Source: Candidatus Methanoperedens sp. (GTDB lineage: Archaea; Halobacteriota; Methanosarcinia; Methanosarcinales; Methanoperedenaceae). From it: a DNA stretch of 64,000 nucleotides. The stretch is taken from positions 1 through 64,000 of the forward strand of contig VEPN01000014.1 of the NCBI GenBank assembly GCA_012026835.1, written 5' to 3'. The translations under genes and the position numbers were made by a program. Positions 10,780 to 61,897 of this stretch are shown here, piece by piece (the stretch's first letter is position 1; each line of letters starts with the position of its first letter). The notes beneath the pieces are model-generated. The model was not told the DNA's origin. It was given only the letters and a program-made list of their open reading frames with translations, and searched no databases.

Positions 10780-11187
10780 TCAGGTTTTCTTGCCTTTCAT
10801 GACTGTCAGGAATTTCTGAATGTAATCTTTTAGCGTCTTTCCCTCCTTCTTTGGCTGATCACCCGGTTTTCCGGGTTCTGGCACAGATTTTGGCTGCGGT
10901 TTCGGTTTTGCTTCTCTTAAAAGGTACCAGGAAACCACCTCGGCATACGCTATGATCCCGATGAATGCCGACCATATAAAAAGCAGGATATGGATATTAT
11001 TTACAGGCACCACAAAAGAGAATTGCTCTACCGAAAGGAACCCCAGCGCCAGGTCGGGAAGGAGAAGAATGATGACCACAGGAACGATTATCAGGACAGC
11101 GGCTGAAAGCAGCGGCGATACGTAAACGAGGATCAGCAAAATTATCAATGCATATATAAAAAAAACCAGTAAAGATATAATATCCAT
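10780..11187 (-). CDS. Small membrane protein with charged cytoplasmic tail
   Basis: 135 aa. Three hydrophobic segments in residues 1-90 (starting MDIISLLVFFIYALIILL) are followed by a Pro/Lys-rich linker (PKPQPKSVPEPGKPG) and a basic helix. No family recognised. The ATG follows the stop of the upstream 561-aa gene after one base, with GAGGC as ribosome binding site, so the two are an operon and may form a surface-anchored unit. Confidence 0.65.
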   Translation of the reverse strand: MDIISLLVFFIYALIILLILVYVSPLLSAAVLIIVPVVIILLLPDLALGFLSVEQFSFVVPVNNIHILLFIWSAFIGIIAYAEVVSWYLLREAKPKPQPKSVPEPGKPGDQPKKEGKTLKDYIQKFLTVMKGKKT

Positions 11188-11188
11188 T

Positions 11189-12874
11189 TTATTGCCTCTT
11201 CTTTGATCTTATTGATATATAAGCGGCCATGGCAACACTGCTGATAATTCCTGCTATCGCCATGAACGATACTATCATGAACAGCAGCATTTCCATCGGT
11301 CTGGCATTTATTTGTTGTATATTATTATTTTTCATATTAATGTCATTATTCTTACTTGTATTTTGTTCAACAGTTTCGGCGGGTTCATTATATTCCGCAG
11401 CTTTAATCGTGTTCGATTGCGCCTGTTTGAAAACACCGCGGATATCACGGTAAACAGCCTGTGCAGCGGGCAGATTTTCGACACTGCCCTGCAACGAGTA
11501 CGTCAATATGGTGTTTTCGCCTCCCTCGAGCAACCCCGACCACTCTGGAATCCCCTCCAGTACCGGATAGCCTTCAGGTATCTCATCTGATACATTCACC
11601 AGCGCAGGCCTGTCTCCAGTATTGCTGACCAGCAATTTCACATCAGTACGGGTATTCCTTTTTATAGCGGATTTGGTAACCTCGATCAACGGCCCGTGTA
11701 CTGTCATCGTCATTTCTCTTGAGGCCGAGGACTGGTTCTTCCACTTTGCCACGGCAGGAGGGAATATATACTGCCCGATTTTCTGGGGCAAAGTGATGTA
11801 CGAGATATTTGCCGACCCGCCAGGTTTAATCTTTATAAGCCAGGTCAGGTGTTTTTGATCAAGGGTTTCATTCTCATACACTGTGTCATAAATGCTGACC
11901 GATTCTTCGGTTGGACCCGCGTTATGTATCAATAGTTCCACTGTCACATTTTTTTCATCAGTATCCGTGGGAACAATTTTTCTTATGGATATAACAGGCA
12001 ACGTATGGATAACCTTGCTGGTAGTTGTTATGTAGACATTGCCCAGGTAATCCCGCATTTCAACGGATGCGGTAATGGTACCTGAGGAATTTGCAGGGAA
12101 TTGCGCTATCCTGGAACTAAGAAACCTCGTACCCGAAACGTTAACAAGAGAAACCATTGAAGGTTGCATTTGCATATTTGCGCTGTTCTCAAGGGCAATG
12201 CCTGCTATATTCAGCGTATTGTCGACGCTTAAGTTCACTGTAACCAGTATCGGTTCATCAGGAGCATATTCCTCTTTATCTGTAAAGATACCGGCTTCGG
12301 TGACAGGTGATGGGATGGTCAGGAATTCAAGTTCCACAAAGCCTTCGGGGTTTATGTCCCTGGCAAATATCCTGAGATTTCCATAGTCGCCTGTGCTGTT
12401 TTTTTCGAAAACCTTCGTTTCTGCCATTGTTGAGTTTGATATTACGAGGCTTACAGAATCGGAAGTGAAGGTGTCTGCACTAATGGTATAACTCCCGACA
12501 TTATATTTCTCCCCCCATTTCAACACTTTAATGCCTGATGATTTCCAGACATCCCTGTTCTCAAGCCTGCTGATACCGATCCAGGAATATTCCCCTTTTA
12601 TCCCCAGTAATGTTACTTTTATATTGCTATACTCATGGAAATCATTTATACTAAAGTCCTGCTGGCTAATCCTGGTCTGGTCCCTGTAAACGGTGATGGA
12701 AGCCTTTTCATCATCCAGGGGTTTTGCTTTTATAAGGAATTTTTCATATGTTAACGATTCGTTAGCCCTGATAAATCCTGAAGATTGGGCTGCCCAGACA
12801 TCATTAATACTATCGGCGGATACTAAAGGAGGAAAAAAGAGTATTGTAAAACATATTATAATTTTTATGTCCAT
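11189..12874 (-). CDS. Secreted, C-terminally anchored surface protein with Ig-like repeats
   Basis: 561 aa. A signal peptide (MDIKIIICFTILFFPPLVSA) precedes a long beta-rich ectodomain with at least three Ig/CARDB-like modules, including ILVTVNLSVDNTLNIAGI and VTVELLIHNAGPTEE. Many N-glycosylation sequons (NES, NST, NSS, NVS) are present. One TM helix near the end (LLFMIVSFMAIAGIISSV) is followed by a short basic tail. It is a cell-surface protein of unknown ligand. Its promoter region is shared with the divergent HEAT-CheC gene; a TTTAAA element lies only about 10 bp upstream of the ATG. Confidence 0.7.
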   Translation of the reverse strand: MDIKIIICFTILFFPPLVSADSINDVWAAQSSGFIRANESLTYEKFLIKAKPLDDEKASITVYRDQTRISQQDFSINDFHEYSNIKVTLLGIKGEYSWIGISRLENRDVWKSSGIKVLKWGEKYNVGSYTISADTFTSDSVSLVISNSTMAETKVFEKNSTGDYGNLRIFARDINPEGFVELEFLTIPSPVTEAGIFTDKEEYAPDEPILVTVNLSVDNTLNIAGIALENSANMQMQPSMVSLVNVSGTRFLSSRIAQFPANSSGTITASVEMRDYLGNVYITTTSKVIHTLPVISIRKIVPTDTDEKNVTVELLIHNAGPTEESVSIYDTVYENETLDQKHLTWLIKIKPGGSANISYITLPQKIGQYIFPPAVAKWKNQSSASREMTMTVHGPLIEVTKSAIKRNTRTDVKLLVSNTGDRPALVNVSDEIPEGYPVLEGIPEWSGLLEGGENTILTYSLQGSVENLPAAQAVYRDIRGVFKQAQSNTIKAAEYNEPAETVEQNTSKNNDINMKNNNIQQINARPMEMLLFMIVSFMAIAGIISSVAMAAYISIRSKKRQ

Positions 12875-12942
12875 TATACTTTAAATTGAATTCTATTAAT
12901 TTAAGCTTTTTCTTAAAACCCCTGTATGAAATATTCCCTTCT

Positions 12943-12968
12943 TCACACCCTTATTTATATCAGTGTGA
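12943..12968 (+). promoter_or_regulatory. TCACA-type promoter (single box plus inverted box) of the HEAT-CheC gene
   Basis: TCACAC at 12943, then TTTATAT at 12954 exactly 11 bp later, then an inverted GTGTGA at 12963, three bases after the TATA box. The distal repeat found in the other copies is missing. The inverted copy after the TATA box recurs upstream of the receiver gene at 48344. Confidence 0.65.
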
Positions 12969-13020
12969 ATCCAAGGCGAATAATACTAAGTGTTTGGAAA
13001 TTTTCATCCGAGGTATAAGA

Positions 13021-15084
13021 TTGCCCTTAGACCATATTGATTTAAAAGAAATGAAAAAGAGCGGGGATATTGAGGGTTTGCTCAGTGTTCTTGATACAGG
13101 CGACCCTAAAGATATGGGAGAGGCGATACGCATGCTGGGAGAACTTAGATCAAGGAAAGCCATCAGGTCGCTTGTCGGATTGCTTGAAAGAGACAACATC
13201 CAGGTTCGCGCGAATTCGGCATGGGCACTGGGTGAAATCGGTGAATCCAAAGCTGTTCTTCCTCTTATCGGGCTCTTGAACGATCCGAGCGATAACGTGA
13301 GGGTATATGCGGCATGGGCACTTGGAAAGATAGGTGATAAACGTGCCCTCAACGCACTGAATACAGCTTTGAAGAACGGTTCACAGGATCTAAGAAAACA
13401 CGCCAGGGAAGCAATAGCGAGAATCGAGTCTAATAAGCTCAAAGGAGGGGATGATGACAACGGTTCAATGGAAGAAGAGCCCCAATCCCAGGAAATGGCG
13501 GGCCTGGCGCTTGTAACTCTTGATGTTCCTCTGGGCCTGTTCGAATGCGATTATGTGTCCAAGGTAGAAGGAGAATCAAGGAAAGGTAATACGATGAGAT
13601 TTTCAGGCGATGTGAGTATAGAGGATACTGTTAATTCAAGCCAGGAGAATACGCGAAGGATCGTCCTGGGGTTGAAAAAAGATTTTAGGGGGCTTGTTTC
13701 GATAGATGTCTTATTCAAGTATCTTGATAACGATGGCGGCGAGAAGACAAGCTCCGTCTGGTTGCAAATGGAATCTGTTTCCGGCGAAACATACCAGGAA
13801 CCGGTCCAGGAAGAGGAAGTGCAAAGGAGAAAGGCATCCCGCCAGGTTTTCAAGAAATCCAGGATAAAGCCCGCAAGAAAGGTAGCCAGGCCAGTTGAAG
13901 ATGAAATCCCTGATAACGGGGAGGATGAGGAACCGCAAAGTGAGGAACAGCCTTCTTTTGAAGTTCCAGTGGCTCCAGTGGCTCCAGTGCAGGAGGTTCC
14001 GAAGAAGAAAGGAACTTCAAGAAGGAAACCTGCGCCTGTTGAAGCTGAAAAATCTGGCCAGGAGCAGGTGCCGGAGAGCCGGGTCACCGAACCTCATGAG
14101 GCGGTGATAGAGGAACCACAGTCTCCTCCAGTACAGGAAATAAAACCTGAAACTGTACCGCAACCGCAGGCAGTTGAGCAACCACAGACTGTTGTTCAGC
14201 CGAAGCAGGAGGTAAAACCCGAATCTATACAGCAGCAGGCAGTAGAAAAACCACAGGTTATTGCCACACCAAAACAGGAAACAAAACCTGAAGGGGCACC
14301 GCAACCTCAGGTTGCAGTTCCAACGAAGCAGGAAGCAAAACCTGAAGAAGCCTCACAACCTCATGCGACGGAAAAACCGCAGGTTGCCGCTCCTCCAATA
14401 CAGGAGGCAAAGCCTGAAACTGTACCGCAACCGCAGGCAGTCCAGCCTAAGCAGGAAGTAAAACCTGAAGCTATGCCGCAGGCCGGTGTGGATTCGGCGG
14501 TCAGGTTATTATCAGATATCGGAATGTCGGGGATGACTGAAGCCGCATCAGCGGTCACCCAGCTTGGCGGCCAGGAAGCCGACTCGCTCCAATCCAGGCT
14601 CCGCACACTTCCTGTGGACCAGATACCTGATGAACTCACAAATCTTGGAGAATATATAGCATCGGTTGAGGTCAAGCTCAAGGGCAAGGGCGAATCGGGG
14701 GAAATGAGAGGCGAGATGCAGATGTATTTCCCGAAAAATGTTGCCCTTGATATCGCAAACGAGCTCCTTTGCAACGGGCCGGGTACGGCGGTAAAAGATT
14801 TCACAGAGGATATAATTTCAACCCTTAAAGAAACTGCCAATATTTTCGGGGGGCAGTATGTAAGCGCTATATCCGAATATATCGAGATCCCGATTTACCT
14901 TGAAGCCCCTGCGTTTAAGACAGGTGCATCGGCACAGGTGGCTGAATCCCTTATGAAAGATATTGCAGGAAAAGTTGAGTTTGTCCTTGCGACAGACCTT
15001 GCTTTCGGGAATGGGAAGACGGGGCGGTTGATCATGCTCCTTGACCCGAAATCGTATGATATCATAATAACCAAGCTCTTCTGA
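13021..15084 (+). CDS. HEAT-repeat / PQ-rich linker / CheC-like phosphatase fusion
   Basis: About 687 aa from the TTG at 13021, chosen because GAGGT lies 8 bp upstream and the region before it does not look coding; in-frame earlier starts exist at 12886. Domains: about four HEAT repeats (residues ~10-135, e.g. ANSAWALGEIGESKAV), a beta-rich domain (~155-265), a long Pro/Gln/Glu/Lys-rich linker with degenerate repeats (~290-540), and a C-terminal CheC/CheX-like domain. The last contains S-x3-E-x2-N-x22-P (STLKETAN, proline codon at 14908), which matches the CheC phosphatase active-site pattern. It may dephosphorylate CheY while the HEAT part docks on a partner. I know of no described protein with this architecture. 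Confidence 0.8.
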   Translation: MPLDHIDLKEMKKSGDIEGLLSVLDTGDPKDMGEAIRMLGELRSRKAIRSLVGLLERDNIQVRANSAWALGEIGESKAVLPLIGLLNDPSDNVRVYAAWALGKIGDKRALNALNTALKNGSQDLRKHAREAIARIESNKLKGGDDDNGSMEEEPQSQEMAGLALVTLDVPLGLFECDYVSKVEGESRKGNTMRFSGDVSIEDTVNSSQENTRRIVLGLKKDFRGLVSIDVLFKYLDNDGGEKTSSVWLQMESVSGETYQEPVQEEEVQRRKASRQVFKKSRIKPARKVARPVEDEIPDNGEDEEPQSEEQPSFEVPVAPVAPVQEVPKKKGTSRRKPAPVEAEKSGQEQVPESRVTEPHEAVIEEPQSPPVQEIKPETVPQPQAVEQPQTVVQPKQEVKPESIQQQAVEKPQVIATPKQETKPEGAPQPQVAVPTKQEAKPEEASQPHATEKPQVAAPPIQEAKPETVPQPQAVQPKQEVKPEAMPQAGVDSAVRLLSDIGMSGMTEAASAVTQLGGQEADSLQSRLRTLPVDQIPDELTNLGEYIASVEVKLKGKGESGEMRGEMQMYFPKNVALDIANELLCNGPGTAVKDFTEDIISTLKETANIFGGQYVSAISEYIEIPIYLEAPAFKTGASAQVAESLMKDIAGKVEFVLATDLAFGNGKTGRLIMLLDPKSYDIIITKLF
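14140..14490 (+). repeat. Degenerate PQ/KPE tandem repeat in the linker
   Basis: The linker repeats a block of about 20-33 aa of the type QEVKPE..PQPQAVE.PQV (examples: ETVPQPQAVEQPQ, QETKPEGAPQPQ, QEAKPETVPQPQAV). DNA copies such as CCTGAAACTGTACCGCAACC occur twice, at 14148 and 14413. Likely an extended, flexible spacer. Confidence 0.7.
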
Positions 15085-15137: not shown

Positions 15138-16238
15138 CTAAGACGTATAAATCTCATTCCCGCGGATTACCTTCTCTGCGTCCCTTTCAAGTTTTGAAAA
15201 CATATTCTTATCAACTTTCTTTCCTGTAAGCTGCTCGATAAACATGAGGGACTTGGCATGGTCTTCGGGGAGCAGTTTCCATGTCGGCCTCTCCACGTAG
15301 TAATCTATCCCGTTTGCATAGTTCATCATTTTTATAGAAACGTCCTCGCTTATCCAGCCAATTTCAATGTAATACTCAAGTATATCATTGAGGTTGTTCC
15401 TTCCCACTTTTTCAAGCAGGAACTCTATCCAGTTCAGCATGATGATCGAGGTCTCAACCCTGTTATCGAGATAAGGCAACTTCGCCCCGTTGCCGTTATC
15501 CGAATATTGAGGTACAGGTTCTGATGATAATGGGTTTTGGGGTGCACCCGGGGTCTTCTGGGATGCAGGAGCAGGTGCGTTTTTTTGCATCTGTTCTTCT
15601 ATTATGGGCTTAAGGTTATCGAAGACCTGTTCCATGACTTTTTGTATAAGTTCATCCTGGTTGGGTGAACTCGTTTGTATTATTTGTGTCATTGCCTCAA
15701 GCCTGTTCTCGATTGTTTTGAATTTGTTATCGAATTCATCCTTCAGGCCTGCGGGGATTTCCGGGGTTTTCTGGCTCAAGGCTTCGATCTTTTTCTCTAT
15801 TTGTTCTATTTTTTCAGGAGCAACGCTCCCCTTGTCCCCCACAAAAGGGTTTACTGTGCTTGAAACCACTTCATATAAGGATAACAATTCAAGGAGGCTT
15901 TCATCTATCTTATCAAGCCGGTCTTTAAATTCATCTATCCTCTGCTTGGATGCCGAGACCGTGCTATCCATTTTATTTAATTTCACTTCAAAATCCTTTA
16001 CAGATTCGGTATTTGCGTTTATCTGCTCGGATTTTGAGTTTATCATCTCCTCGATCTTCTTGGCTGATTCTTCCTGGCTTTTTTTAAGCTGTTCAGCAAT
16101 ATCGGGGGTAGCAACTGTAGTAGCAGGGGTTTCAGAAGGGCTGGTTTCAGAAGTCCTTTTTATCTTTTCGATTTTTTTTATGAGGGACTCTTCAGGCATC
16201 TTTAATTTTTTAAACTTCTCCGATAAGTCCTCAAACAT
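15138..16238 (-). CDS. ArlD/E-domain coiled-coil protein (archaellum accessory, ArlCDE-like)
   Basis: 366 aa. The first ~240 residues are a long coiled coil (repeats such as EINANTESVKDFEVKLNK) with a Pro-rich spacer. The last ~110 residues form the archaellar D/E domain: the block ETSIIMLNWIEFLLEKVG, a GWISEDV turn and a KLLPEDHAKSLMFIEQL stretch. In euryarchaea ArlC/D/E sit at the archaellum base and receive signals through CheF. The gene is 33 kb from the archaellin cluster, next to the KaiC-like ATPase and the HEAT-CheC fusion. Only this one C/D/E protein is seen. AAGGA precedes the ATG. Confidence 0.83.
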   Translation of the reverse strand: MFEDLSEKFKKLKMPEESLIKKIEKIKRTSETSPSETPATTVATPDIAEQLKKSQEESAKKIEEMINSKSEQINANTESVKDFEVKLNKMDSTVSASKQRIDEFKDRLDKIDESLLELLSLYEVVSSTVNPFVGDKGSVAPEKIEQIEKKIEALSQKTPEIPAGLKDEFDNKFKTIENRLEAMTQIIQTSSPNQDELIQKVMEQVFDNLKPIIEEQMQKNAPAPASQKTPGAPQNPLSSEPVPQYSDNGNGAKLPYLDNRVETSIIMLNWIEFLLEKVGRNNLNDILEYYIEIGWISEDVSIKMMNYANGIDYYVERPTWKLLPEDHAKSLMFIEQLTGKKVDKNMFSKLERDAEKVIRGNEIYTS

Positions 16239-16441: not shown

Positions 16442-17191
16442 ATGCGAATAAAAACAGGAATCGAAGGGTTTGATGGACTTGTTGAAGGTGGTCTTCTCCA
16501 GGGAAGGCAGTATCTTGTCAGCGGGTCACCGGGTAGTGGAAAAACAACCTTTGGTGTGCAATTTCTTGCAGCAGGGGCGCTGGAGGGTGAACCAGGGGCG
16601 TATGTAGCATTATCAGAGAGCATAGGGACGATAATAGAAGATATGTCCAGGTACAATTTGCATCTCGATGAGCTGATCAAGAAGAAGAAATTATTTTTCC
16701 TTGATATCGGACCTACAATGAATTACGGGGAATATGATGAGATTTCAACATATATTACACCCACCCATGAACAACTGCCAGGAGAATCTGCTGAAAACAT
16801 ACCTCCATCGCCATATACTGTATACAAGAACGTGGAAACACTTGTGAAACAATATGGCATTAAGAGACTTGTGATCGATTCGCTTTCAGCCATCAGGTTC
16901 ACCACGCAGGAGCCACCTAAAGAAGAACGCTCCATAGGCAGGTTCATCCGCAACCTGAAAAACGTTGGCTGCACCACCCTTTTGCTCTCAGAACTTACCA
17001 AGCCCGACGCCTATACGATAGAACAATTCGCTTCACACGGGGTTATCTTTCTCCATAATTTCATGGATAAAGGGAGTATGGTAAGAGCTATGCAGATAAT
17101 CAAAATGCGCGGAACAAAACATGACTGCGATATGCATGGCATTGAATTCACGGAAAAAGGCCTGAAAGTACAGAAAACAACGAAGAAATAA
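16442..17191 (+). CDS. KaiC-like RecA-fold ATPase, single domain
   Basis: 249 aa. Walker A GSPGSGKTT at residues ~29-37, Walker B RLVIDSLSAI near 140. The glutamate region after Walker A reads YVALSES rather than the double-Glu of circadian KaiC. Belongs to the COG0467 group that also contains ArlH. It carries the same promoter as the archaellin and che genes, so it is likely to serve motility, perhaps as an ArlH-like regulator of the archaellum motor or as a signalling ATPase. Downstream after 14 bp lies a small gene with a rare start codon. Confidence 0.85.
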   Translation: MRIKTGIEGFDGLVEGGLLQGRQYLVSGSPGSGKTTFGVQFLAAGALEGEPGAYVALSESIGTIIEDMSRYNLHLDELIKKKKLFFLDIGPTMNYGEYDEISTYITPTHEQLPGESAENIPPSPYTVYKNVETLVKQYGIKRLVIDSLSAIRFTTQEPPKEERSIGRFIRNLKNVGCTTLLLSELTKPDAYTIEQFASHGVIFLHNFMDKGSMVRAMQIIKMRGTKHDCDMHGIEFTEKGLKVQKTTKK

Positions 17192-17746: not shown

Positions 17747-18508
17747 ATGGAAAAACCCAAAATACTCATTGTGGATGATGAACCGGTAAACATCGAGCTA
17801 TTGGAAGGGATCCTCTCAAAAAATTATCAGATAATAAAAGCATATAATGGGATTGAGGCTCTGGAAACGGTTAAAAACAATTTCCCCGATCTGGTACTCC
17901 TGGACATTGTGATGCCTGATATGAATGGTTACGAGATATGCAAACAGATGAAAAACAATTATGAAACAATGTCGATCCCGATAATAATAGTAACTGTCCT
18001 GAAAGAGAAAGAAAACAGGATCGAAGCAATAACAGCGGGTGCAGATGATTTTATTATCAAGCCCATTGACATTGATATTCTAAACGCCAGGGTGGAATCT
18101 CTTCTCACGACAAAAAAGAAATACTATATTTTCAGCTACCAGGATTCATTCCAGCCTGCGCCAGGCAAGAAGGATACATACCGGGTAATGGAAGACATAG
18201 TCAAGAACCACCTGGAGATGCTTATCCTGAAATTATTATACGAAAGGCCGATGTGCGGGTATGAGATTATCAAGGAGATCCATTCAAAATATAATGTATT
18301 GTTAAGCCTGGGAACTGTTTATCCCTTTTTATATTCACTTAAAAAAGAAGGAATCGTGAATATCCAATTTCCAAGAGGCGACATGAGGACAAAAATATAC
18401 TTTGCTACTGCCGAAGGGAGAAAAATAATCGAGAAAAGGATTAATGAATTTATAATTATAGAAGAATATATTTTAGGTATCATCAAGAATGGAGGATTGA
18501 ATGCTTAA
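17747..18508 (+). CDS. Response regulator with PadR-type DNA-binding domain
   Basis: 253 aa. Residues 1-120 are a receiver domain: acidic pocket VDDE, phosphoacceptor D53 in LLDIVMP, conserved Thr in IIVTVLK and Lys in FIIKPID. Residues ~150-245 form a PadR winged helix (LKLLYERPMCGYEIIKEI, then GTVYPFLYSLKKEGIV). REC-PadR fusions are rare; PadR proteins usually sense ligands rather than phosphorylation. Its own promoter is of the motility type, so it may be a phosphorylation-dependent regulator within or above that regulon. Confidence 0.85.
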   Translation: MEKPKILIVDDEPVNIELLEGILSKNYQIIKAYNGIEALETVKNNFPDLVLLDIVMPDMNGYEICKQMKNNYETMSIPIIIVTVLKEKENRIEAITAGADDFIIKPIDIDILNARVESLLTTKKKYYIFSYQDSFQPAPGKKDTYRVMEDIVKNHLEMLILKLLYERPMCGYEIIKEIHSKYNVLLSLGTVYPFLYSLKKEGIVNIQFPRGDMRTKIYFATAEGRKIIEKRINEFIIIEEYILGIIKNGGLNA

Positions 18509-29109: not shown

Positions 29110-29138
29110 TCACACGTTTTTCACAAATTTCTATATAT
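29110..29138 (+). promoter_or_regulatory. TCACA-type promoter of receptor 2
   Basis: TCACAC at 29110, TCACAA at 29121 and TATATAT at 29132; GGGTGAA follows the TATA box. The leader then contains an AGCACA/TGTGCT hairpin near 29183-29200. Confidence 0.8.
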
Positions 29139-46280: not shown

Positions 46281-47333
46281 ATGTCTATCAGGAAAAATAT
46301 ATCATTAGAAAAGGTACATTTGAAGAAGCTTGAGCCCCTTATTTTAAAGCATAAGGGAAATTTCAGCGCCGCCATGCGTGAAATAATTGACCTTATCGAT
46401 ACGATGATTAAAGACCCTGATGCAGCAACAGGGCTTATAGACGGCTTAAAAACCGATAATAACCTCACTGAAACAGTTATGTACTGGCTTATCAGACAGG
46501 CGCACGGCAGGCTCATAGACCAGGAAATCATCAACAGCATCCTTGAATCTTCCAGGATAGAACGGCTTTCAGAAATTGAGAGCTATCTTGATGATATGGC
46601 AGGCGGGGCAAGCTGGCAGACAAAAATAAGGATATATGATTACGATGACGATATGAACCCTTCACATGCAAGGGTCACGCTGACAGGGAATAATGCTTAT
46701 AAAACCGAATTCCTGGGGAATATCATCTCTTCCTTTATGGTCTCCCAGAAAAAACAGGAGATTGTCTCTCTTAAAAGAACGTCCAGTACGATCACTATCA
46801 ATTTCAGGAAGCAGGCCAGTCCAAATCTTGCGGGCCAGTCTCTTGTTGATCATTTTGGCCAGATGGAAGATATCACTTCGGAGATATCTAAAAAGATGGA
46901 ATTCTGGAAATGCATCGTTAACCTGTATAAGCAGACCAATTATAATATGGTAACAATTCCGAAAAATTATTATAATGAATTGCTGATGGGAAAAGAAGCG
47001 CCAAGCTATCTTACAGCATCAATCGAGGCCATACATAAGGTTCCGATAAGGGATATCCCATTAGGGACCCTTATTTCAACCATGAAATCAGTGTATGAAT
47101 ATATGGGCGTTGTAGAGCGGATCGATGTGGACGAGAACACCTTGAAGATTTACCACGGTTATACGGATTCTCGTGCAATAAATGCCATTGAGAAGATACT
47201 TTTGAATGTGCTTAATGCCAATGGCAGTCTATATCAATCCCGCTGCTCTGAAAACCTGATAGTCATGAGCCCGGTGGTGCGCAAGGATGGGGAGAAGCCG
47301 GCCAGTCCTGTACCAGGAAATTTTTTAATCTGA
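46281..47333 (+). CDS. Ribbon-helix-helix protein 1 with large C-terminal domain
   Basis: 350 aa; AGAGGAAT before the ATG. Residues ~3-40 fit an RHH DNA-binding fold: strand RKNISLE, helix VHLKKLEPLILKHKG and then NFSAAMREIIDL. The remaining ~300 residues are mixed alpha/beta and unrecognised, with repeated CheC-unrelated strands (ARVTLTGNNAYKTEF, STITINFRKQ). It is paralogous to the 222-aa gene at 47539 in its first ~45 residues and shares its lone-helix spacing. Placed inside the motility cluster and carrying the cluster's own promoter, it is a candidate regulator of it. Confidence 0.7.
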   Translation: MSIRKNISLEKVHLKKLEPLILKHKGNFSAAMREIIDLIDTMIKDPDAATGLIDGLKTDNNLTETVMYWLIRQAHGRLIDQEIINSILESSRIERLSEIESYLDDMAGGASWQTKIRIYDYDDDMNPSHARVTLTGNNAYKTEFLGNIISSFMVSQKKQEIVSLKRTSSTITINFRKQASPNLAGQSLVDHFGQMEDITSEISKKMEFWKCIVNLYKQTNYNMVTIPKNYYNELLMGKEAPSYLTASIEAIHKVPIRDIPLGTLISTMKSVYEYMGVVERIDVDENTLKIYHGYTDSRAINAIEKILLNVLNANGSLYQSRCSENLIVMSPVVRKDGEKPASPVPGNFLI

Positions 47334-47538: not shown

Positions 47539-48207
47539 ATGCTAAGAAAGAACGTATCAATAAGCGATGCCCATCTAAAACTGCTTGAACCGTTGCTAAA
47601 AAAACATCAGGGCAACCTTTCGGCTGCAATGAGGGACATAATTGACTTCACAGGCTTTGTGACCGAGAACATGGGAAGCCTTGAAACCGCAAAAGACCTT
47701 TTGAAAGAGAAAAACCACGTCAGGGAACAAATACAAAACCGGATATACGGAGTAACTATCCCGTTAACTATGTTCAGGTGGCTTCTGGCCAGCAGGAAAT
47801 ATGGTCTTCCGCCGATGTGCGAAACTCTCCAGCTTTTTGCCCCCCACAATGACATTAATGTCTATGATACGAACAGCCTGAATAAGATAATCAACGAGGA
47901 GCTCTCTATCCTCAACTGGCCAACTACTGTGTCTGTTGACAGCGGCGATGACCAGATCTCAATCCAGGTAACAGGCACTGATCCTGAAATAAACAATTTT
48001 GCAGCCATATTGATATCAATGTATCTTTCAAACAATAAAAATCCCCAGAAAATAATCAAGCTGTTGCTTTATCCCTCATCTATATCCATGAAGTTCTCAA
48101 ACGCCCCTTCCTCTGAAAATGCCCAGCAATCAATATACACGTATTTGTGCGACAACACCGAAAGAATTCCGGACCAGAATGGTGTGATTCTTGTAAAAGC
48201 AGAATAA
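47539..48207 (+). CDS. Ribbon-helix-helix protein 2
   Basis: 222 aa. The N-terminus LRKNVSISDAHLKLLEPLLK and NLSAAMRDIIDF is clearly paralogous to RHH protein 1. The C-terminal part is shorter and ends in a beta-rich segment (QISIQVTGTDPEINNF) resembling the strands of protein 1. DNA binding by the RHH part is well supported by pattern; target and ligand are unknown. The gene lies 205 bp after RHH gene 1. Confidence 0.7.
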   Translation: MLRKNVSISDAHLKLLEPLLKKHQGNLSAAMRDIIDFTGFVTENMGSLETAKDLLKEKNHVREQIQNRIYGVTIPLTMFRWLLASRKYGLPPMCETLQLFAPHNDINVYDTNSLNKIINEELSILNWPTTVSVDSGDDQISIQVTGTDPEINNFAAILISMYLSNNKNPQKIIKLLLYPSSISMKFSNAPSSENAQQSIYTYLCDNTERIPDQNGVILVKAE

Positions 48208-48343: not shown

Positions 48344-48976
48344 ATGAGCAATAAAAAGTTAAAATACTTACTTATTGTTAACAGCGAACCCGATATTGCA
48401 GATCTTTTTGCAGAAATGCTGCTCATGGATATTGAAAAATACATAATCAACACTGCATATACGGGAAAGGATTGCCTGTTAACACTGAAACGGGATAGGC
48501 CAGACATGGTCTTGCTGGATCTTGAGCTTTCGGATATGGATGGCTGGGAACTGGTTGAAAAGATAAAGGAATCAAAGCCCGATATACCGATAGTGATTGT
48601 TACCTCAAAAATCCCGGGCGTGGATGATTTCACGCGCTTATCCATGGTCTCAGACTATCTAATGAAACCTGTTACTATTGATTGTCTTTATATGGCTGTG
48701 AGAGATGCCCTGGAAATCCCGGCTCTTGTTGAGAACTGTATTAAGACCTTAAAGGGATTCAATGAAATAGACAGGGCTCTTTTAGAAAAAAATATCCGCC
48801 TGCTCAGGCAGAGCATCAGTGACAGGAAATTTTTCATTATGATGCGCCAGCTTTACCCCGAAAGAAAAGCAAAAAATGAAACCGGTATCATGCGTAAGCT
48901 TGAAGCCCTGAAAATAAAGATTGACAGGGAACACAGCGAATTAGAGGATTTTAAAAAACGCTGTTTAATCGCTTGA
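48344..48976 (+). CDS. Receiver-domain protein with altered acidic pocket
   Basis: 210 aa. REC domain ~5-125 with phosphoacceptor D59 in LLDLELSDMDG, Thr in VIVTSK and Lys in LMKPVT. The usual acidic Asp pair is replaced by Asn-Ser-Glu (VNSEP at 12-16), which may lower Mg binding and phosphorylation. The C-terminal ~85 residues are helical with no known output domain. The ATG lies about 27 bp from the TATA box, so the mRNA is nearly leaderless. Confidence 0.8.
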   Translation: MSNKKLKYLLIVNSEPDIADLFAEMLLMDIEKYIINTAYTGKDCLLTLKRDRPDMVLLDLELSDMDGWELVEKIKESKPDIPIVIVTSKIPGVDDFTRLSMVSDYLMKPVTIDCLYMAVRDALEIPALVENCIKTLKGFNEIDRALLEKNIRLLRQSISDRKFFIMMRQLYPERKAKNETGIMRKLEALKIKIDREHSELEDFKKRCLIA

Positions 48977-57008: not shown

Positions 57009-57365
57009 ATGCCAGGAAAAATTTTGCTCGTAGATGATGCAGCTTTCATGCGAATGATGCTGAAAAAAATCCTTGCATCAACGGGAAACGAATTGATCGA
57101 GGCGGTAGATGGGTCAGATGGCGTGGCAAAGTACAAGGAACATAAACCCAACCTTGTCCTGCTTGATATCATAATGCCCAATACCGATGGGATCGAGTGC
57201 CTGAAGCAGATAATCGCTTTTGATAAGGGCGCAAAAGTGGTGATGTGCAGTTCGATAGGCCAGCAGACAGTCGTAAATGACGCCATTAAGATAGGTGCCA
57301 GGGATTTTATAATTAAACCATTTGATGCTGCAAAAGTAATGGACATAGTCTCAAAGAACCTTTAA
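57009..57365 (+). CDS. cheY: Chemotaxis response regulator CheY
   Basis: 118 aa single receiver: VDDA pocket, phosphoacceptor D53 in LLDIIMP, conserved Ser in VMCSSIG and Lys in FIIKPFD. GGAGAAAAA before the ATG. In archaea phospho-CheY acts on the archaellum through CheF and ArlC/D/E; no CheF gene is seen in this window. Confidence 0.95.
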   Translation: MPGKILLVDDAAFMRMMLKKILASTGNELIEAVDGSDGVAKYKEHKPNLVLLDIIMPNTDGIECLKQIIAFDKGAKVVMCSSIGQQTVVNDAIKIGARDFIIKPFDAAKVMDIVSKNL

Positions 57366-57375
57366 AAGGTAAAAA

Positions 57376-58449
57376 ATGTCCAGGATAAAAGTGCTTGTGG
57401 TGGATGACTCTGCGTTGATGCGTAAAGTAATCAGCGATATACTTGCATCTTTCCCGGATATAGAAGTAATCGGGAAGGCAAAAAATGGACAGGATGCAAT
57501 AGAGAAGGTAACTTCATTAAGACCTGATGTTGTCACAATGGATATTGAAATGCCCGTGCTCAACGGGCTGAATGCCCTCGGTTATATAATGAGCGAGTGC
57601 CCGACGCCTGTTATCATGCTAAGCGGTGATAACTCTGCTGATATTACTATCACTGCGTTCCAGTATGGTGCTGTAGATTTCATACTCAAGCCTTCAGGTG
57701 AGATAAGCCGTGATATTGCCAATATAAAAGATGAACTGATAAAAAAAGTAAGGGCTGCTGCGGGCGTGGCGGTACAGAAGCTTGGTTTTATCGAAGAAAA
57801 GCGTAAAAAAGAAACTATAGCCAGGGAGCCGCAACCTGACAGGAGGGAAAAGGCGGAACATATCAAGAAGCCAATATCTAAGAAAATAGTCATAATAGGC
57901 TCGTCCACCGGGGGGCCGAGGGCATTGCAGCAGGTCATCCCTCTGCTGCCGCCGACGCTTGCTGTACTTGTGGTCCAGCACATGCCTCCGGGCTTTACCA
58001 AATCACTGGCCGAGCGCCTCAACCTGCAATCAAGGATCAGGGTAAGAGAGGCCAGGGAAGGGGATGTTGTAGAGCCGGGAACTGTTCTTATCGCCCCGGG
58101 CGATTTTCATATGACAGTAAAACAGCAAATGACCAATGGAGGAATGAGGGAGGTAATTGCACTAACAAAAGGCGAGCGCGTCCAGGGTGTCCGCCCCTCT
58201 GTGGACGTTCTTCTCAAATCCGCAGTGCCGATATACGGGGAAAGGGCTGTCGGAGTGATACTTACGGGCATGGGTTCTGACGGTTCCGAGGGGATAAAGA
58301 AACTGAAATCTGCCGGAGGCAAGGTAATTGCAGAGGATGAGTCTACCTGCGTGGTCTTTGGCATGCCCAAGTCCGTTATAGACCAGAAATTGGCTGATTA
58401 TGTCTTACCCATAACTAAAATAGCAGAAAGTATTGCGCAAATTGCGTAG
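57376..58449 (+). CDS. cheB: Chemotaxis methylesterase CheB
   Basis: 357 aa. N-terminal receiver (VVDDS; D56 in TMDIEMP), a basic linker, and a methylesterase with Ser in GSSTGGPRAL, His in VVQHMPPGFT and Asp in GMGSDGSEG. It removes methyl groups from, and deamidates, receptors. It follows cheY after 10 bp. Confidence 0.95.
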   Translation: MSRIKVLVVDDSALMRKVISDILASFPDIEVIGKAKNGQDAIEKVTSLRPDVVTMDIEMPVLNGLNALGYIMSECPTPVIMLSGDNSADITITAFQYGAVDFILKPSGEISRDIANIKDELIKKVRAAAGVAVQKLGFIEEKRKKETIAREPQPDRREKAEHIKKPISKKIVIIGSSTGGPRALQQVIPLLPPTLAVLVVQHMPPGFTKSLAERLNLQSRIRVREAREGDVVEPGTVLIAPGDFHMTVKQQMTNGGMREVIALTKGERVQGVRPSVDVLLKSAVPIYGERAVGVILTGMGSDGSEGIKKLKSAGGKVIAEDESTCVVFGMPKSVIDQKLADYVLPITKIAESIAQIA

Positions 58450-58457
58450 AGGTATTT

Positions 58458-60434
58458 ATGAACGATATGTCTGAATATAAAGAAATGTATGCGGTTGAAG
58501 CAGCAGAGCATCTGCAATCGATGAATGATGCGCTTTTGAGCCTTGAAAAAGATCAGAAAAACAGTGAAACGATCAATCAGATGTTCAGGGCGGCCCATAC
58601 ACTCAAGGGCATGTCGGCCACCATGGGTTACTCCAATATCGCAGAGCTTACGCATGATATGGAGAACCTGATGGACAGGGTACGTAAGAATGAGATGGTA
58701 CTTGACCCGTCAGGAGTGGACCTGTTGTTCGAGGTGCTTGATAACCTTGAAAAAATGGTGGAAGCCCCGGAACAATCTTCCCAGTTTGATATCTCTTCCC
58801 TGCGTGACAGGCTCCAATCGCTATCAAAAGGAACGGGCGTGCCTGCACATGAGGAAGAAAAACCCGCGGCAACTGAAGTGTCCTCAGGCGAGAAACCGGA
58901 AGCTGCCGCATCAGAGGCTGCGCCCGTATCCAGTGAGCAGAAAACCTCTGAGGATACATGCACTGTATTCAATGTAACGGTCACGCTTCAGGAATCCTGT
59001 CTCCTTAAATCTGCCAGGGCAACAGTCGTCATGAGAAATCTTTCCGAGTTAGGAAAGATTGTGGAGACAACACCGCCTGTTAAGGATATTGAAGATGAGA
59101 AATTTGATCGGGTATTCACGGTCATGATATCGACCACCGAGGATGCTAAAAAATTAGAAGAAGCCGTAAAAAAGACCTCGGATGTTTCAGGTGTTGAAGC
59201 AAAACCTGTGGATACCCATGTGGAGACACAGGTTAAAAAGAAAATCGAACAAAAAACCTCAGAAGGGGATGCTAATAAAACTGTTGTAAAGAGCGTCCAG
59301 AGCGTTCGCGTCAGTATCGAGAGGCTTGATTCGTTGATGAACCTGGTCGGGGAGCTTGTTATAAATAAAATACGGTTGACGCAGCTTGCGACAGTGCATA
59401 AACTCGATGTCCTTGAAGAATCCCTTGCAAGCCTGAACCGCCTTACCAACGACCTTCAGGAAGAGATAATGGCTTCAAGGATGGTGCCGATTGACCAGAT
59501 ATTCAACCGTTTCCCCAGGATGGTGAGGGACCTTGCCAAGAAAGAAGGTAAGGAGATAGAACTTATCCTGGAAGGCGGCGATATTGAGCTTGACAGGACA
59601 GTACTGGATGAGGTAGGCGATCCTCTTGTCCATATCCTCAGGAATTGTGTTGACCACGGGATAGAATCACCCCAGGAACGGGAAAAAGCCGGCAAGAATC
59701 CAAAAGGCAGGGTTGTCCTGACTGCAAGGCGCGAGAAGAACTATGTAGCAATTGAAGCTGTTGATGATGGCAAAGGGATGGATCCCCGCAAGTTCAGGGA
59801 AGCCGCAGTAAAGAAGGGGTTAATGACGGCTGAGGAGGCTGCAAAGCTCACGGATAACGAGGCGCTTAACCTGTCCTACATGGCAGGTTTCAGTACTGCT
59901 GAGAAAGTGACCGATGTTTCAGGGCGCGGGGTCGGGATGGATGTTGTCAGGACAAAGATTGAATCGCTTGGAGGCACGGTGAAACTTGAGTCAAAGATTG
60001 GCGAGGGCACAAAGCTCACTCTTAAATTGCCTCTTACAGTAGCGATCATACGCTCTCTGATGGTGAAAGTCGCCAGGGATATCTATGCGATACCGATAAC
60101 CAACGTGATACGTGACCTTGCTATCAAAAAAGACATGATAAAGACCATAAAAGGCGAAGAGGTCATATTGATGAGGGGCGAGGTCCTGCCTATTATCTGG
60201 CTCCACAGGCTGTTCGGGATTAATACCAACGGCACGGAAGAACTTATCGTGGTAGTGGTGGAGCGCGGGGGCAGCAATGTGGGACTCGTGGTGGACCAGG
60301 TCGTGGGCCAGCAGGAAGTGATAATCAAGAAACTTGACAACAGCCTGCTTAAAGGAATAAAAGGATTTGCAGGCGCCACCATACTGGGTGACGGGAACGT
60401 GGCTCTTATTCTTGATGTAGGGACATTGCTATGA
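58458..60434 (+). CDS. cheA: Chemotaxis histidine kinase CheA
   Basis: 658 aa. P1 with H47 in RAAHTLKGMSATMG; a Pro/Ala/Glu-rich linker; P2 (~170-255); P3 dimerisation (LDSLMNLVGELVINK); P4 kinase (NCVDHGIESP, DDGKGMD, GRGVGMDVV); P5 CheW-like regulatory domain at the end. The kinase takes signals from the six receptors in the window via the two CheW proteins. It overlaps cheR by 4 bp. Confidence 0.96.
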   Translation: MNDMSEYKEMYAVEAAEHLQSMNDALLSLEKDQKNSETINQMFRAAHTLKGMSATMGYSNIAELTHDMENLMDRVRKNEMVLDPSGVDLLFEVLDNLEKMVEAPEQSSQFDISSLRDRLQSLSKGTGVPAHEEEKPAATEVSSGEKPEAAASEAAPVSSEQKTSEDTCTVFNVTVTLQESCLLKSARATVVMRNLSELGKIVETTPPVKDIEDEKFDRVFTVMISTTEDAKKLEEAVKKTSDVSGVEAKPVDTHVETQVKKKIEQKTSEGDANKTVVKSVQSVRVSIERLDSLMNLVGELVINKIRLTQLATVHKLDVLEESLASLNRLTNDLQEEIMASRMVPIDQIFNRFPRMVRDLAKKEGKEIELILEGGDIELDRTVLDEVGDPLVHILRNCVDHGIESPQEREKAGKNPKGRVVLTARREKNYVAIEAVDDGKGMDPRKFREAAVKKGLMTAEEAAKLTDNEALNLSYMAGFSTAEKVTDVSGRGVGMDVVRTKIESLGGTVKLESKIGEGTKLTLKLPLTVAIIRSLMVKVARDIYAIPITNVIRDLAIKKDMIKTIKGEEVILMRGEVLPIIWLHRLFGINTNGTEELIVVVVERGGSNVGLVVDQVVGQQEVIIKKLDNSLLKGIKGFAGATILGDGNVALILDVGTLL

Positions 60435-61270
60435 CGAATTTTGCAGACTCTATCGTTTTGCATGAGGATGAAAAGGAGTTCGTGGAGCTAAAGGCCATTA
60501 TCAAGAAAAAAATCGGCTTTAACTGCGATCAGTATAAACAGGCTCATTTGAAACGCAGGCTTGCGGTCAGGCTTCGGGCGAACCAGTCGGGCTCATATAA
60601 GGAATATATGGATATTCTTATGAGAAATGAAGCTGAATTGCAGAAATTAAAGGATACATTGACAGTTAACGTCACGGAATTATTCAGGAACCCTGAAACT
60701 TATGAAGTATTCAGTAAAACCGTGCTCCCTGAACTGGTAAAGTCTAAAGGGGATGATAAAACCATCAAAATATGGAGTGCAGGCTGCTCAAACGGCGAGG
60801 AACCATATTCCATCGCCATCCTGGTGCGCGAATTCCTCGGCGGGTTAACAAAAAGATATTCTATATCCATAATTGGGACGGATATTGATGAAGATTCCCT
60901 GAAGAAAGCCCAGAACGGTATATTCCAGTTAAAGCAGCTTGAGAAAATAAATAAGGAAAGGCTTGATAAGTTTTTCACTAGGAAAGATGATGGGAATTTC
61001 CAGATAAGTGAGGATTTAAGGCGTCTTTTAAAGTTCAGGCACCATGATATGATTTCAGGCCCCCGGATGTTCGGATTCGATGTGATATTCTGCAGGAATG
61101 TTACTATATATTTCGAGCAGGAATTGCAGGAAAAGCTTTATTTGAATTTTTACAATGCCCTTAATAAAGGCGGATATTTCGTTATGGGGAAAACCGAGAC
61201 ACTGGTAGGTCCGGCAGGTGACTTATTTGAACCTGTTGATGTGAGGGAAAGAATTTATCAAAAAAGGTGA
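60431..61270 (+). CDS. cheR: Chemotaxis methyltransferase CheR
   Basis: 279 aa. N-terminal helical domain (KKKIGFNCDQYKQAHLKRRL) and a SAM-binding domain with WSAGCSNGEEPYSIA, GTDIDEDSL and FCRNVTIYF. It methylates receptor glutamates. The sixth position of the usual RNVTIYF motif is intact. Confidence 0.95.
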   Translation: MTNFADSIVLHEDEKEFVELKAIIKKKIGFNCDQYKQAHLKRRLAVRLRANQSGSYKEYMDILMRNEAELQKLKDTLTVNVTELFRNPETYEVFSKTVLPELVKSKGDDKTIKIWSAGCSNGEEPYSIAILVREFLGGLTKRYSISIIGTDIDEDSLKKAQNGIFQLKQLEKINKERLDKFFTRKDDGNFQISEDLRRLLKFRHHDMISGPRMFGFDVIFCRNVTIYFEQELQEKLYLNFYNALNKGGYFVMGKTETLVGPAGDLFEPVDVRERIYQKR

Positions 61271-61276
61271 TAATTT

Positions 61277-61897
61277 ATGAATGAAACAAGAGCACTTAAT
61301 GCGTTCCAGTATGATGCACTTAAAGAGGTAGGGAATATAGGCATCGGGCAGGCTACTACTTCCCTTTCCAGAATGATAAAGGACAAAAAAGTGGGAATTT
61401 CCCTGCCAGACCTGCAATTGGTACCTTTGATCAAACTGCCGGATTATATAAAAAATGAAAATCCGGTTGTAGGCATTATCCAGGGACTAAAAGGGGAAGA
61501 GAGCGGGTTCCTGTTGCTCCTGTTATCCAAGGAGAGTGCAAAAATGCTGGTAAAACAGATGTTCGGAATGGAAGAGGGCGGCGAGGGTTTTGATGAAATG
61601 GAGATATCAGCCCTGAATGAACTGGGTAATATAATGAACGGTACTTACATTACTGCTCTTGGGGATTTCCTGAAACTGGCGATAAATCTTTCGACACCCA
61701 CCATGGTATACGATATGCTGGATTCTATAATTAACCAGGTTGTAGGCATACTGATGCCGGTTGTTGATAATGTACTGCTCCTTAAGACTGAATTCACTGT
61801 AGATTCGGAGAAAGTGGATGGAACGATACTTGTGTTCGTGAATGACTCGTCCCTGGATAGCTTGCTTGCTTCGATAGACAGACTGGTAGGCAGATAA
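61277..61897 (+). CDS. cheC: CheY-P phosphatase CheC
   Basis: 206 aa with two internal copies of the phosphatase motif: DALKEVGNIGIG near the N-terminus and SALNELGNIMNG near 115. Both keep D/S-x3-E-x2-N. CheC is activated by CheD, encoded next. A second, unusual protein with one such motif is the HEAT-CheC fusion at 13021. Confidence 0.94.
   Translation: MNETRALNAFQYDALKEVGNIGIGQATTSLSRMIKDKKVGISLPDLQLVPLIKLPDYIKNENPVVGIIQGLKGEESGFLLLLLSKESAKMLVKQMFGMEEGGEGFDEMEISALNELGNIMNGTYITALGDFLKLAINLSTPTMVYDMLDSIINQVVGILMPVVDNVLLLKTEFTVDSEKVDGTILVFVNDSSLDSLLASIDRLVGR

Follow-up and report, generated by a model that had tools for sequence, protein, structure and literature searches.

Delivery of CheY-P to the archaellum motor has so far been explained through CheF, an adaptor between CheY-P and ArlCDE in archaea (PMC9126983). 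In Halobacterium, CheF is contacted by two separate proteins: the HEAT protein OE2401F (HEAT_PBS), a partner of CheF1 and CheD without which switching fails, and CheC2, which binds CheF1/F2, was compared with FliY by the authors and was read as a sign of motor-side dephosphorylation (PMC2666748, PMC3579733). The haloarchaeal HEAT relatives comprise about 410 aa, and in most haloarchaeal loci examined their gene lies directly before CheF. In general, catalysis in the CheC family involves acid and amide side chains that are inserted into the receiver site (PMC3035606). CheC proper, exemplified by the structures from Thermotoga (1xkr/2f9z) and Haloarcula (3qta), possesses two ExxN sites, CheX has a single active site per protein, and FliY (4hyn) of the bacterial flagellar switch contains a CheC-type phosphatase domain.

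In the methane-oxidising Methanoperedenaceae, HEAT repeats and a CheC-type domain reside in one protein of 687 aa, here termed HEAT-CheC, a fusion with precedent in kind, since a HEAT protein and a CheC, both CheF-binding, occur as separate proteins in Halobacterium. Its gene occupies positions 13021-15084 on the forward strand of the window, i.e. of the whole 64,000-nucleotide stretch analysed, part of a Candidatus Methanoperedens genome, and has 20 orthologues, its own genome included. Both the TTG start at 13021 and the first residues are kept in nearly all orthologues, and the longer reading upstream of this codon showed no conservation among them. The N-terminal HEAT repeats (aa ~16-137; 13066-13431; Pfam HEAT_2, 2.7e-21) reach 73% mean column identity in the orthologue alignment and are followed by a conserved, predicted all-beta domain of no assigned family (aa ~158-265; 13492-13815; 53%). 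For the latter, AlphaFold predicted six strands at moderate confidence (mean pLDDT 72), and comparison with PDB folds yielded nothing significant (best E 0.048); a CopC/Ig-like fold was discarded, as the matches were weak and none was significant. Next comes a low-complexity, P/Q/E/K-rich arm (aa ~266-487; 13816-14481), which spans ~220 residues here and 70-276 across the orthologues, with a hydrophobic content of 16-25%; the low hydrophobicity and varying length fit a presumably disordered tether. The CheC-type phosphatase domain (aa 488-687; 14482-15081) forms the C-terminus. Hence, the preliminary description had the fusion and its coordinates right, whereas its ~250-residue PQ-rich linker stands only in part: the arm is real, but residues ~158-265 belong to a folded beta domain, and the PQ bias is found mainly in the own species, the arm being P/E/K-rich in general. 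The HEAT-beta portion can stand alone because one genome, G002, encodes it with the CheC part absent.

Assignment of the C-terminus to the CheC family is based on profiles, predicted fold and active-site residues. The NCBIfam model CheC_Thtogales (8.7e-13) covers almost the whole domain at a score far below its membership cut-off, while Pfam CheX gave 28.2 bits for the isolated domain (cut-off 27) and Pfam CheC matched weakly, with 23.1 (cut-off 22) but 18.5-20.9 in hmmscan. The AlphaFold model, computed from the 20 orthologous C-terminal domains, has a mean pLDDT of 84.4 and a pTM of 0.81, and a Foldseek search of the PDB ranked the Haloarcula CheC-like protein 3qta and Thermotoga CheC first (~1e-10; best 8.8e-11), followed by FliY, CheX and FliM, at TM-scores of ~0.6 and large rmsd, so that helix-packing details of the model are unreliable. 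Structure prediction and profile search thus agree with the proposed CheC-like nature of the domain, and its active-site pattern, S600-x3-E604-x2-N607-x22-P630, is invariant in 20/20 orthologues, including the two residues, E604 and N607, on whose conservation the proposal had been made to depend. These supply both the acid and the amide of CheC-family chemistry. On the contrary, the first ExxN site of CheC is lost in all 20, where it reads D/N-x2-M/K/I/L/H/T, mostly with M (D499/M502 here), whereas the glutamate at this site is retained in the stand-alone CheCs from these genomes, most of which have the entire ExxN. As the second site is invariant and the first one lost throughout, selection maintains one site, and HEAT-CheC is, as judged from its residues, a single-site enzyme.

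The domain therefore resembles CheC in predicted fold over its whole length and in the second site, yet it falls outside the two-site definition of CheC proper, is fused to HEAT repeats, beta domain and arm, and forms a separate clade on a long stem in a tree with the stand-alone CheCs. With CheX it shares the single active site, but it is longer, more CheC-like, retains a remnant of the first site and is part of a fused architecture. The analogy to FliY drawn in the preliminary description is supported at the level of a role only, namely a CheC-type phosphatase domain with a proposed location at the motor: HEAT-CheC is not a FliY, for HEAT repeats, beta domain and arm replace the FliM/FliY-type N-terminus, the motor is an archaellum and not a flagellum, and a Pfam scan found neither a FliN/SpoA C-terminal domain nor a FliM-type N-terminus in the protein, which ends with the CheC domain.

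The promoter carries a perfect inverted repeat, TTCACAC-N14-GTGTGAA, that encloses a TATA-like box (12942-12969, forward strand, 0 mismatches), located 51 bp upstream of the start and constituting the sole site with 0-1 mismatches in the window. Its arms are exact in 16/16 Methanoperedens orthologues with upstream sequence and show 2-3 mismatches in the two g2 genomes. The left half corresponds to a motif of the surrounding motility island, TTCACA-N7-WTATAT, of which 8 of the 14 genome-wide copies fall into the 64-kb island (binomial P 5e-11, ignoring shared ancestry), all of them upstream of motility-island genes. For the six copies outside, no clear placement before motility genes was seen, hence the motif is not motility-exclusive. 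A matrix built from HEAT-CheC promoters alone picks the promoters of MCPs, archaellins and one response regulator in the window, and the regulon-type promoter of the preliminary description is supported insofar as the motif is common to HEAT-CheC, archaellin and chemoreceptor (MCP) genes. The whole palindrome was rejected as a regulon signature, since other genes share only the left half and the TATA box. Copies at 29120, 36617, 39691, 44396, 49006, 49774 and 50622 precede MCP, archaellin and other motility-island genes, and a weaker form precedes the CheY gene (about 56914).

Convergent with HEAT-CheC lies the gene of a fused archaellar ArlC-D/E switch-complex protein (15138-16238, reverse strand; PF04659, 1.2e-25; FlaC_arch, 6.1e-14). 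This adjacency, pointed out in the preliminary description, extends to about 11 genomes, in which ArlC-D/E adjoins HEAT-CheC or lies close by; the two are separated in G003, where HEAT-CheC comes after respiratory-complex-like genes, and apparently in G017, G020 and G021. The che operon (57009-61897, forward strand) encodes CheY (57009-57365), CheB, CheA (58458-60434), CheR and an ordinary two-site CheC (61277-61897); it is presumably the source of the substrate, and its CheC is the paralogue of the HEAT-CheC domain. The earlier statement that HEAT-CheC is far from this operon holds for the distance of ~42 kb but not for the context, as one motility/chemotaxis island includes both.

Among the genomes searched, the fusion was confined to Methanoperedenaceae: it is present in 20/34 genomes of the family, and no case outside the family emerged from a profile search over 393 genomes of the phylum, which found ordinary CheCs elsewhere, or from a genome-contig scan reaching close relatives only. 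Archaellar D/E occurs in 31/34 and CheW/CheA in 26/34 family genomes. Among genomes at least 90% complete, all with archaellar D/E, HEAT-beta is present in 18/20 CheW-positive and 0/5 CheW-negative ones (Fisher P 4e-4, ignoring shared ancestry). Hence, in well-assembled genomes the HEAT-CheC gene tracks the Che system and not the archaellum alone. The two CheW-positive exceptions, G012 and G016, are archaellated and possess che clusters with CheA and two CheWs (G012:C123; G016:C1), in which an ordinary CheC was undetected. In addition, G010 and G027 (incomplete, 87% and 63%) contain CheC, CheW and an intact ArlC-D/E locus but not HEAT-CheC; here, ArlC-D/E directly adjoins the relative of gene 11189, leaving an empty site, and this speaks most strongly against HEAT-CheC being essential.

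A further peculiarity of the family is that CheF (PF04283) was undetected in 34/34 genomes, though most have Che and archaellum genes and the search was positive in the controls Methanosarcina acetivorans, H. volcanii and M. jannaschii. CheF as a binding partner of HEAT-CheC is thus inapplicable, and the arrangement of Halobacterium, with separate HEAT and CheC proteins and CheF present, is opposed by one protein and no detectable CheF. The CheF-centred picture is consequently incomplete for an entire family, for which HEAT-CheC offers a concrete candidate substitute and a candidate missing link between chemotaxis signal and motor; this gap lends it an interest beyond that of a mere domain fusion. 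The likeness to the Halobacterium parts is an analogy and not proven descent, because the HEAT part is not a reciprocal best match: orthology with OE2401F-type proteins was rejected, as a profile built from 7 HEAT proteins of haloarchaea scored another HEAT protein of the own genome higher (78 vs 63 bits). A CheF-like origin of the beta or CheC domain was likewise rejected (hhalign probability <1% for both), and PF04283 had no match in the own genome.

Taken together, HEAT-CheC presents a known enzyme family in a new architecture and most likely serves as a phosphatase kept at the archaellum switch; on balance we infer that it acts on CheY-P at the motor, docked at ArlC-D/E. In such a mechanism, HEAT repeats and beta domain would anchor HEAT-CheC, with the neighbouring ArlC-D/E switch complex or its vicinity as the likeliest site, and the disordered arm would allow the CheC-type domain to move across this site. 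E604 and N607 would then be inserted into the CheY-P active site in a CheX-like manner, and the resulting hydrolysis of the phosphate would end the switch signal at the motor, while the che-operon CheC, with its two sites, would serve the receptor side. The interpretation in the preliminary description is supported in part, with phosphatase activity, ArlCDE binding and a reach function of the arm as its proposed elements. The fusion would join two observations from Halobacterium, namely that switching requires a HEAT protein and that a CheC is bound where CheF meets the motor, and it makes the siting of a phosphatase at an archaeal motor accessible to experiment. This motor-side reading is weakened by the lack of the gene in G010/G027, of the CheC part in G002, by the separation from ArlC-D/E in G003 and apparently in G017, G020 and G021, and by the failure of the HEAT part to be the best own-genome match of the haloarchaeal HEAT proteins.

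Since CheF is undetected, HEAT-CheC may also help to bring CheY-P to the switch and is possibly part of what replaces CheF. A stronger version, tentative and less probable than the switch-held phosphatase, would have chemotaxis in Methanoperedenaceae proceed without CheF, with the fusion in its place docking on the switch, capturing CheY-P and erasing the signal. Equally doubtful is the variant in which carriage of CheY-P to the ArlCDE switch is the main job, so that the CheC domain binds CheY-P, HEAT-beta binds ArlCDE and hydrolysis is secondary. The detection of PF04283 in 0/34 family genomes despite positive controls, the described adaptor function of CheF (PMC9126983) and the co-occurrence of the gene with Che rather than with the archaellum alone favour such a substitution, though the Che-positive, CheF-negative genomes G010, G027, G012 and G016 are devoid of HEAT-CheC, G002 lacks the CheC part, and beta and CheC domains are unlike CheF in profile comparison. 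Less probable still is an activity together with CheD at receptor arrays, or on one of the two further response regulators of the island (48344-48976 or 17747-18508): CheC proteins do bind CheD (PDB 2f9z; PMC3579733), yet the che operon already has an ordinary CheC, HEAT-CheC neighbours ArlC-D/E, and HEAT proteins adjoin CheF in most haloarchaeal loci examined. Finally, a structural switch component whose FliM-like CheC-fold domain binds CheY-P without useful catalysis would accord with FliM among the fold matches and the loss of one of two CheC sites, but is highly improbable, as S600, E604, N607 and P630 are invariant in 20/20 orthologues, a constraint not required of a domain with a structural role alone.

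Several other genes of the island were noted. The product of 17747-18508 combines a response-regulator receiver with a PadR-type DNA-binding domain in one protein, and 46281-47333 and 47539-48207 encode related proteins with a common N-terminal stretch and no Pfam match, which are possible regulators. Divergent from HEAT-CheC across the palindrome, two membrane-type genes (11189-12874, weakly BatD-like, and 10780-11187) stay beside ArlC-D/E even in genomes without HEAT-CheC, and a KaiC-like ATPase gene (16442-17191) is conserved beside ArlC-D/E in many genomes.
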